From the NCBI RefSeq assembly GCF_020832205.1, contig NZ_JAFIFD010000037.1:1-64000 (forward strand): 64,000 bases of DNA, in the 5' to 3' direction. Below the pieces are notes generated by a model. It searched no databases. It was not told the origin of the DNA and saw only the letters and a program-made list of their open reading frames with translations. The position numbers and the translations under genes are program-made. The DNA is from Exiguobacterium sp. (lineage in GTDB: Bacteria > Bacillota > Bacilli > Exiguobacteriales > Exiguobacteriaceae). Shown one piece after another: positions 28,130 through 29,517 of the stretch (positions are counted from its first letter, which is position 1; the number at the start of each line of letters is the position of its first letter).

Positions 28130-28158
28130 AGTTTAACATAGAACACATGAGCGCACAA
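28130..28158 (-). promoter_or_regulatory. Promoter of lexA (minus strand)
   Basis: On the minus strand TTGTGC, 17-base spacer, TAAACT. The -35 overlaps the weak LexA box at 28157-28168, giving autorepression. Confidence 0.6.
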
Positions 28159-28168
28159 ACATTCGTTC
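28157..28168. promoter_or_regulatory. LexA box 1 (one mismatch)
   Basis: AAAC-ATTC-GTTC on the plus strand (GAAC-GAAT-GTTT on the minus), one mismatch from GAAC-N4-GTTC; overlaps the lexA -35. Confidence 0.65.
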
Positions 28169-28177
28169 GTTTTTTTC

Positions 28178-28207
28178 TTGACCGAACAGAAGTTCCTGTT
28201 TTATGAT
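28178..28207 (+). promoter_or_regulatory. Promoter of the SOS membrane-protein operon
   Basis: TTGACC (28178-28183), 18-base spacer, TATGAT (28202-28207). LexA box 2 fills the spacer. Confidence 0.7.
28184..28195. promoter_or_regulatory. LexA box 2 (perfect core)
   Basis: GAAC-AGAA-GTTC lies between -35 and -10 of the rightward promoter, an ideal repression position. Confidence 0.88.
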
Positions 28208-28221
28208 GAGAACAGATAAAC

Positions 28222-28233
28222 GAACAAACGTTC
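28222..28233. promoter_or_regulatory. LexA box 3 (perfect core)
   Basis: GAAC-AAAC-GTTC lies just downstream of the predicted transcription start of the rightward operon. Confidence 0.88.
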
Positions 28234-28272
28234 TCAAGAACGTGCATTCTTATAAACTGGAGGCGAAGTGAA

Positions 28273-28506
28273 ATGAAAGATACGGTAAATGGAATCATCT
28301 TAGTCGGGTTATTGGTGCTCGGTATGTTCGCATTTTTTATGGTCGGAGAAATGAGGCACGTTGAAGTGGCGGCACCTGTCGTCGAAGACACGCGGAGCAT
28401 CGAGGCGGAAGTGGCACGGGCAGAAGCGGAAACGCTCGAAGCACGCATTATCGCCGAACGGGCTGAAAAAGATGAACGCAAGACGACGTGGTTCGCCTCC
28501 GAATAA
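28273..28506 (+). CDS. Small single-span membrane protein, probable SOS cell-division inhibitor (YneA/SosA-like)
   Basis: 77 residues. One N-terminal transmembrane helix (residues 7-25, G-I-I-L-V-G-L-L-V-L-G-M-F-A-F-F-M-V) followed by a 50-residue acidic and charged, Ala/Glu-rich helix. It occupies the place of B. subtilis yneA, divergent from lexA and upstream of yneB, under two perfect LexA boxes. Unlike YneA it has no LysM domain. In size and layout it is closer to the S. aureus division inhibitor SosA. Role as SOS-induced division inhibitor is inferred from position and topology, not from sequence identity. ATG has GGAGGCGAAG upstream. Confidence 0.75.
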   Translation: MKDTVNGIILVGLLVLGMFAFFMVGEMRHVEVAAPVVEDTRSIEAEVARAEAETLEARIIAERAEKDERKTTWFASE

Positions 28507-28578
28507 TCGTTTCTGATTGCGAAACGCCCTCGTTCCTGTGTATCGTAGAAAAGGAATGGAAAGAAAGGGAGTGACGGG

Positions 28579-29223
28579 ATGCGAGTCGTCATTTATTGTC
28601 GCGTGTCGACGAACAAAGCGGCGCAAGAGACTTCGCTCGGTCGTCAAGTCGAAGAGTTGACGCGGATGGCGAAGCGCCTCGGGGCCGACGTCATCGACAC
28701 CATCACCGAACAAGAGAGCGGTTACGAGGTCAATCGGACGGGTCTTCTCGACTTGCTCGAGCACGTCTCGGCCTCAAACCTTGACGCCGTTCTCGTGACC
28801 GATGACAGCCGTCTCGGACGAGGAAATGCGAAAATCGCCATTTTGCACACGCTCATGAAGCACGACGTCCGGCTGCTGACGATGCAGTCTCCGGATGAGT
28901 ATGTCGTCTCAGACGCGGAAAAGATGGTGCTCGAGATTGTCAGTGTCGTCGAAGAGTACCAACGTAAAATTCATAACGCGAAAATATCCCGCGGGATGCG
29001 GCGCGCTGTGGCGAACGGATTCAATCCGCAACGCAACATTCAACATCACGACCAGGGCGGACGGAGTCGGATCGAGGTCCCGATCGAAGAGATCGTCCAA
29101 CTTCGTGAACGGGGGTTGACGTTTGCGGAAATCGCGGCGACGTTACGCGGCTTCGGGTATGAAGTCTCGAAAGCGACGGTCAACCGGCGTTATCTCGAAC
29201 ACGTGGCGGTATCGAAAACTTGA
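28579..29223 (+). CDS. yneB: YneB-type serine recombinase (resolvase family)
   Basis: 214 residues. N-terminal resolvase domain with the nucleophile region Y-C-R-V-S-T (Ser about residue 10) and D-D-S-R-L-G-R-G (Arg pair about 75-78), then a C-terminal helix-turn-helix (F-A-E-I-A-A-T-L-R and [10 protein letters not shown]). In B. subtilis the homologue lies in the LexA-controlled yneA-yneB-ynzC operon; the same order is kept here. Its biological target is not known, and no inverted-repeat crossover sites are apparent nearby. Confidence 0.92.
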
Positions 29224-29283
29224 TTCCTCAGCGCTGATTTTGTACAGTAGAAGAACAAATTCAGTAGAGAGGGGGCGAGCCTG

Positions 29284-29517
29284 ATGTTAGTACCTGAACA
29301 ATTGGAGCGAATCAATTTCCTCGCCAACAAAGCGAAGACGGACGGTCTATCGCAACAAGAGATGGATGAACAACAAGCTTTACGTCAACAATATTTGAAA
29401 GCGTTCCGTCAGTCATTCAAATCCCAAATGATGGGTATGAAAGTCGTCGATCCGGACGGCAACGACGTGACACCGCAAAAACTTAAAGAAGAGCAAGATC
29501 GCCAACGCTCGGAATGA
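29284..29517 (+). CDS. ynzC: DUF896 protein YnzC
   Basis: 77 residues with the diagnostic R-I-N-F-L-A-N-K-A-K-T-D-G-L-S-Q-Q-E segment and R-Q-Q-Y-L-K-A-F-R. YnzC is a small helical protein, last gene of the SOS operon in B. subtilis; function unknown. GAGAGGGGG precedes the ATG. Ends at the hairpin 29524-29561. Confidence 0.93.
   Translation: MLVPEQLERINFLANKAKTDGLSQQEMDEQQALRQQYLKAFRQSFKSQMMGMKVVDPDGNDVTPQKLKEEQDRQRSE

Follow-up and report, generated by a model that had tools for sequence, protein, structure and literature searches.

A LysM-free single-span protein encoded at the position of yneA in an Exiguobacterium genus is a candidate SOS division inhibitor

Introduction

Which protein stops division during the SOS response in an Exiguobacterium lineage that carries, between lexA and yneB, a small membrane protein in place of a recognizable YneA? 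Gram-positive SOS division inhibitors have been described in few lineages. They differ in design: YneA needs its LysM domain and SosA is without one, which leaves open whether the outer part of such a protein has to bind peptidoglycan. Published work reports that the YneA span binds TM7 of FtsW, that YneA of Bacillus subtilis without its LysM domain is inactive, the domain being needed to stop septal synthesis (PMC13396833), and that YneA is degraded by CtpA and DdcP (PMC13396833, PMC6851548, PMC6051672). SosA is described as a LysM-free protein of 77 aa with its activity in the outer part, an activity that rises when the last 10 residues are removed or CtpA is mutated (PMC6851548). In B. pumilus, yneABynzC is reported to be an operon strongly induced as a unit (PMC3896406). 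Among the open-access matches listed for Exiguobacterium LexA in the SOS response, YneA and cell division inhibitors, the titles and abstract openings contained no study of the gene described here.

Results

We analysed a 64,000-nucleotide stretch of Exiguobacterium DNA (the window), in which the region from lexA to the end of the yneB operon has the following features.

27451-28071, minus strand: lexA, SOS repressor, divergent to the operon (TIGR00498, 9.8e-76), with its ATG at 28071 and a ribosome site
28156-28169 (core 28157-28168), no strand: LexA-like site A, CAAACATTCGTTCG, one core mismatch, on the lexA side of the divergon
28178-28207, plus strand: sigmaA-like promoter TTGACC-N18-TATGAT of the small ORF/yneB/ynzC operon, 10/12 matches
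28183-28196 (core 28184-28195), no strand: LexA site B, CGAACAGAAGTTCC, perfect core, within the -35/-10 spacer
28221-28234 (core 28222-28233), no strand: LexA site C, CGAACAAACGTTCT, perfect core, directly downstream of the -10 element
28237-28250 (core 28238-28249), no strand: LexA-like site D, AGAACGTGCATTCT, one core mismatch, in the 5' leader
28273-28506, plus strand: small open reading frame (ORF) of 77 aa with a GGAGG ribosome site, between lexA and yneB
28579-29223, plus strand: yneB, resolvase-like, operon partner (NF049883, 1.1e-95)
29284-29517, plus strand: DUF896 (ynzC-type) gene, operon partner (PF05979, 3.5e-30)
29524-29554, plus strand: terminator-like hairpin at the end of the three-gene operon (12 pairs, then a T-rich tail), a kind of pattern that chance also yields (3 found, shuffle mean 1.8)

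The order small ORF-yneB-ynzC is that of the Bacillus yneA-yneB-ynzC operon. An antisense open frame of 159 aa (28113-28592, minus strand) spans both the small ORF and the operator, and we regarded it as spurious.

CGAACRNRYGTTYC is the Bacillus LexA consensus, from which sites B and C each differ by one mismatch. The sequence-only reading had recognized two perfect LexA boxes at this locus; the two perfect-core sites stood, but the count had to be raised to four LexA-type sites. Across the window's genus, the GAACN4GTTC core of sites B and C was perfect in 19/19 genomes, site A kept the identical 14 bases in 19/19 (with CAAACAATTGTTCG in 4/4 aligned rows of the sister genus), and site D read GAACN4ATTC in all 19 genomes and in 4/4 aligned sister-genus rows; the promoter elements were TTGACC in 18/19 rows and TATGAT in 19/19. 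A loose LexA pattern (two mismatches at most) was no commoner in the window than expected by chance (84 occurrences against a shuffle mean of 75.7), and single imperfect sites therefore carry little meaning. The strict pattern CGAACN4GTTCB was far sparser, with 20 distinct places genome-wide (2.78 Mb), two of them here, 38 bp apart; since the genome scan gave 28 match lines against 18 for a reversed control pattern, a single site of this kind may be due to chance. Three more of the 20 places preceded dinB (DNA polymerase IV), parE and the gene of a Y-family polymerase by 14-43 bp, indicating that the pattern marks SOS genes in this organism.

Two loci elsewhere in the same genome were recorded. 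At L200 (contig C46 near 14024), a LexA-type site is 14 bp away from the start of a Y-family polymerase (NF002848, 5.4e-90, below the cut-off). At L194 (contig C36 near 42481), two small ORFs flank CGAACAAAAGTTCG, a LexA-type site that is a perfect palindrome: a divergent ORF of 85 aa, and one of 74 aa whose one-span product ends in a CxxC...CxxC zinc-ribbon-like stretch. Neither had an NCBIfam match at E<=1e-5, and a second small SOS-type membrane protein may possibly be encoded there.

The 77-aa protein starts with six residues ahead of a single hydrophobic span, and its C-terminal part is acidic. The whole protein can be divided as follows.

Residues 1-28: N-terminus and span
Residues 29-42: variable linker
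Residues 43-70: conserved acidic helical tail
C-terminal end: W[FY]A[AS]E

A LysM-free single-span protein with an acidic helical tail had been read in the yneA slot, and this description held: no LysM or YneA match was obtained with Pfam and NCBIfam at E<=1, the predicted structure was all helical (H2-27 and H43-75; pLDDT 68.6), and the protein is kept across the genus. The ORF was present in 19/19 genomes searched of the window's genus, encoding 77-79 aa, and the other 18 proteins were 57-97% identical to that of the window; named relatives comprised 14 Exiguobacterium records, including E. aurantiacum, E. profundum, E. aestuarii, E. chiriqhucha and E. alkaliphilum. In the alignment of homologues, which had been proposed earlier as a check, the ORF was free of stops in every genome of the genus that was searched. 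Over the 19 genomes, pN/pS was 0.31 overall, 0.19 for residues 1-28, 0.65 for the linker (29-42) and 0.27 for the tail. Judged from these sequences, the small ORF is real and under purifying selection. Mean entropy within the family followed the same parts (span 0.42 bits, linker 1.59, tail 0.73, last seven residues 0.53); conservation of the span was weakly one-sided (p=0.089), and amphipathic periodicity was not seen in the tail (p 0.80-0.98). Neither a sequence search of the PDB nor Foldseek returned a match for the protein. A hit to PF24153 (Meg) reached 17.7 bits, below the cut-off of 27, and was put down to chance.

The C-terminus of the protein carries a signature that also occurs in known inhibitors. 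A hydrophobic residue followed by alanine ([VILMFYW]A) within the last eight residues was found in 9/9 distinct C-termini of the 77-aa family, 15/15 SosA proteins and 17/19 YneA proteins, against 8/55 ORFs of the window. Sequences that are relatives do not count independently, and the tally was made after the pattern had caught the eye, so that the shared end is at most suggestive of a degron common to the three proteins. Proteases of the CtpA type (TIGR00225) and of the YlbL/SepM type (NF041438) were encoded in 7/7 genomes tested. TisB represents the SOS-induced membrane toxins, and a protein of that kind, arresting growth without acting specifically at the septum, would likewise be small, with one span and LexA-type sites. 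However, a 35-residue tail and a C-terminus under purifying selection, an operon of the yneA type and a signature in common with YneA and SosA are more in keeping with a regulated inhibitor than with such a toxin or growth-arrest peptide, which we consider improbable.

In the sister genus, the same lexA-yneB slot is occupied by a YneA-type protein of about 95 aa in 19/19 genomes. Two variants scanned against the YneA model NF010723 scored 61.1 and 55.9 bits (cut-off 60), and among the matches listed for the class sample, this model was matched over its cut-off in 10/13 sister-genus genomes versus 0/14 of the window's genus. The predicted structure of the sister YneA has a LysM-like beta-alpha-alpha-beta tail in a weak model (pLDDT 56.9), and in that weak model the tail aligned to the LysM structure 4uz2_A (Z 5.3, rmsd 2.0, 49 residues; next row Z 3.0), while a sequence search of the PDB gave no match. 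The Pfam LysM model misses the sister YneA too; thus, the all-helical prediction and the absence of an NF010723 match weigh more against a LysM domain in the 77-aa protein.

The DNA upstream of the two proteins is alike in the two genera. In 20 cross-genus pairs, drawn from 5/19 promoters of the window's genus and 4/19 of the sister genus, 93-108 of 145-147 aligned promoter and leader bases were identical (64-74%), and in one direct pair the identity was 102/147, versus at most 70 in 50 shuffles. The four LexA-type sites are in register between the genera, and the similarity stops at the start codon. As the operator is alike and the proteins are not recognizably related, the operator was evidently inherited and the protein beneath it changed; the "stop dividing" part of the SOS response thus appears, from sequence comparison, to have been exchanged or remade in the window's genus.

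We then have two accounts of how the coding sequence came about. The earlier reading had called the checkpoint independent or strongly diverged, a description that fits the profile comparisons: the 77-aa family was not clearly above column shuffles against YneA, SosA or the sister YneA (6, 6 and 7 of 100 shuffles, respectively, reached the real scores). The YneA set comprised proteins from 21/30 yneB loci (6 lacked the yneB orientation motif and 3 an ORF), the SosA set proteins from 18/20 loci (in L161 and L163 the match started elsewhere than at a start codon, and they were left out), and the sister-genus alignment seven proteins standing for 19 genomes. At E<=1, the 77-aa protein matched neither the SosA model NF041581 nor the YneA model NF010723. 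YneA gave the best of the three weak comparisons (score 16.5), and this result, together with the same slot, operator and operon and the LysM YneA found beside yneB elsewhere in the class, favours descent from yneA, with the span kept, the LysM domain lost or rewritten in place, and FtsW still bound through the span. The same score was nevertheless reached by 6/100 column shuffles and corresponds to an hhalign probability of 2.4% (1.45% for the SosA profile), and the sister YneA is still recognizable against Bacillus-type YneA with 98.6% probability, so that the divergence would be confined to the window's genus. We give this origin, which is compatible with a role as division inhibitor, close to an even chance.

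Alternatively, an unrelated small membrane protein gene may have taken the slot under the inherited LexA operator, performing the same job through a different contact. Such a replacement would account for proteins without detectable similarity beneath a region that, from promoter to start codon, is so similar in the two genera, and for the absence of relatives beyond the genus in the 299 class genomes and the viral contigs: a profile of the 19 proteins gave nothing convincing in 285 genomes of other genera from the class sample of 299 (best outside match, E 0.0013 over 38 residues), and 27 pattern stretches in viral contigs yielded 0 confirmed. The same searches, however, also failed to find a donor family in these genomes and contigs, and short membrane proteins lose similarity fast, so that absent similarity is no proof against descent. 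Replacement is a serious possibility that falls somewhat short of even, the sequence being compatible with a rewritten yneA and with a replaced one.

A comparison of the SosA and YneA profiles with each other gave, in a plain hhalign run, a probability of 48% and a score of 26.4 over 27 columns, hinting that the spans of these two proteins may share a common origin.

The neighbourhood of yneB was surveyed across the class. A full yneB match was found in 114/299 class genomes, one further genome (G225) with a broken YneB match being left out, and among the matches listed, a YneA-model match lay beside yneB in 73 of the 114 (72 within 400 bp and one at 1.7 kb). The 77-aa protein occurred beside yneB in the window's genus only (14/114). 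The 27 yneB genomes outside the genus with no listed YneA neighbour were read one by one, one contig giving just 388 bases upstream, and none had a small one-span ORF between lexA and yneB; lexA and yneB were direct neighbours in several of them, and yneB had moved in others. These counts bear on the reading in which the protein assists YneB, or is a regulator, and plays no part in division. The small ORF does share an operon with yneB, but 27 yneB genomes outside the genus manage without such a partner and 73 have YneA at that place, and we regard this reading as very unlikely.

At four loci (L114, L125, L147 and L128, in genomes G287, G178, G197 and G031), lexA adjoins yneB with no yneA, and a LexA-type core lies in the gap of 3/4; in these three, yneB alone therefore seems to be SOS-driven.

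FtsW, the reported partner of YneA, was compared as well. In the family, FtsW was 32-36% identical to Bacillus-type FtsW (32-34% in the window's genus), and TM7 differed from the Bacillus type in both Exiguobacterium genera. Because FtsW is divergent and its TM7 different, the docking site of the span is uncertain, and docking at TM7 is not directly supported. Exiguobacterium FtsW of both genera (for example, L231 and L227) scored about 265-285 bits against the TIGR02614 cut-off of 337.5, and the stretch TM6-TM7 differed. As a reference for Bacillus-type FtsW, we used a 403-aa protein with V204-S-P206 in genome G188; the best TIGR02614 match in Bacillus (366 aa) is presumably SpoVE and not FtsW. 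The substitution P206L in FtsW TM7 is reported to confer YneA resistance in B. subtilis (PMC13396833). In a first small FtsW set, proline seemed to be present in 3/3 sister-genus sequences where 6/6 of the window's genus had glycine. The idea that the TM7 proline is tied to the presence of YneA was dropped: in an 88-row set, which counted one genome of each Exiguobacterium genus twice and included one Bacillus-type paralog, just 21/36 YneA-bearing lineages had the proline, and in that alignment both Exiguobacterium genera fall in a gap at this position.

Discussion

The 77-aa protein is probably the SOS-induced division inhibitor of this Exiguobacterium lineage, acting in the stead of YneA. 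Its slot, operon, layout and C-terminal signature are consistent with such an inhibitor. In those sequence-readable traits that matter for a mode of action, it resembles YneA and SosA, and by the tests made, it would be a candidate for a lineage-specific, LysM-free inhibitor belonging to neither the YneA nor the SosA family. As YneA without LysM is inactive in B. subtilis, a LysM-free protein would have to block division by another part.

We propose the following course of events. LexA, bound at sites B and C and flanked by sites A and D, would occupy the sigmaA-like promoter and thereby silence the small ORF, yneB and ynzC. As in the established SOS response, DNA damage would lead RecA to trigger self-cleavage of LexA, and the 77-aa protein would be made. 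Judged by its charge, the protein is expected to keep its N-terminus inside the cell once inserted into the membrane and to expose the acidic tail on the outer face. If it acts as YneA and SosA do, the highly conserved span may dock on the peptidoglycan synthase of the septum, most likely FtsW, and this synthase may be kept inactive by the conserved helix of the distal tail, in place of a LysM domain. During recovery, the membrane proteases of the CtpA and YlbL/DdcP types present in these genomes would recognize the hydrophobic-Ala C-terminus. The coding sequence itself would have arisen on the stem of the genus, where a LysM-type YneA was either exchanged or diverged past recognition while the operator was inherited.

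A bolder form of this proposal can be put forward only tentatively: within one family, the effector of the SOS checkpoint may have been exchanged under an inherited four-site LexA divergon, which in one genus would drive YneA of a peptidoglycan-binding type and in its sister an unrelated LysM-free protein working through a distal acidic helix. If this exchange is true, peptidoglycan binding would be dispensable for such a checkpoint, and selection would keep the operator, the span and the C-terminal degron. A natural swap beneath a nearly constant promoter would make LysM and LysM-free designs comparable in two sister genera, and the locus proposes a C-terminal degron shared by YneA, SosA and the 77-aa protein.

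Compared with known systems, the locus shares with that of YneA (B. subtilis; NF010723) the lexA-yneB slot, LexA-type sites and the operon with yneB and ynzC, and the two proteins have in common a short N-terminus, one span, small size and a hydrophobic-Ala C-terminus. Unlike YneA, the 77-aa protein is without LysM, has an all-helical acidic tail and does not match the YneA model. With SosA (Staphylococcus; NF041581), it shares a length of 77 aa, a gene divergent from lexA, one span, the lack of LysM, a C-terminal tail with a hydrophobic-Ala end and LexA control, represented here by LexA-type sites seen in the sequence. The membrane-proximal motif EQxYEMTDH, however, was found in the 18 SosA proteins read and was missing in 19/19 proteins of the 77-aa family, and the conserved distal tail and variable linker of the latter are the reverse of SosA, where entropy was 1.68 bits in the span, 0.58 in the membrane-proximal motif and 2.24 in the distal part (the SosA sequences diverge more from one another throughout, and the comparison was confined to how the parts are ordered). 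The likeness to SosA suggested earlier therefore extends only to size and layout: the conserved parts lie elsewhere and the SosA model is not matched. DivS (Corynebacterium glutamicum), SidA (Caulobacter) and ChiZ (Mycobacterium) are, according to two reports, also SOS-linked small membrane division inhibitors (PMC6851548, PMC13396833); they belong to other phyla, ChiZ has a LysM domain, and the likeness is one of published descriptions. In its LexA-type operator, lexA as neighbour, one span and short N-terminus, the 77-aa locus agrees with the SOS-linked single-span division inhibitors of Gram-positives.
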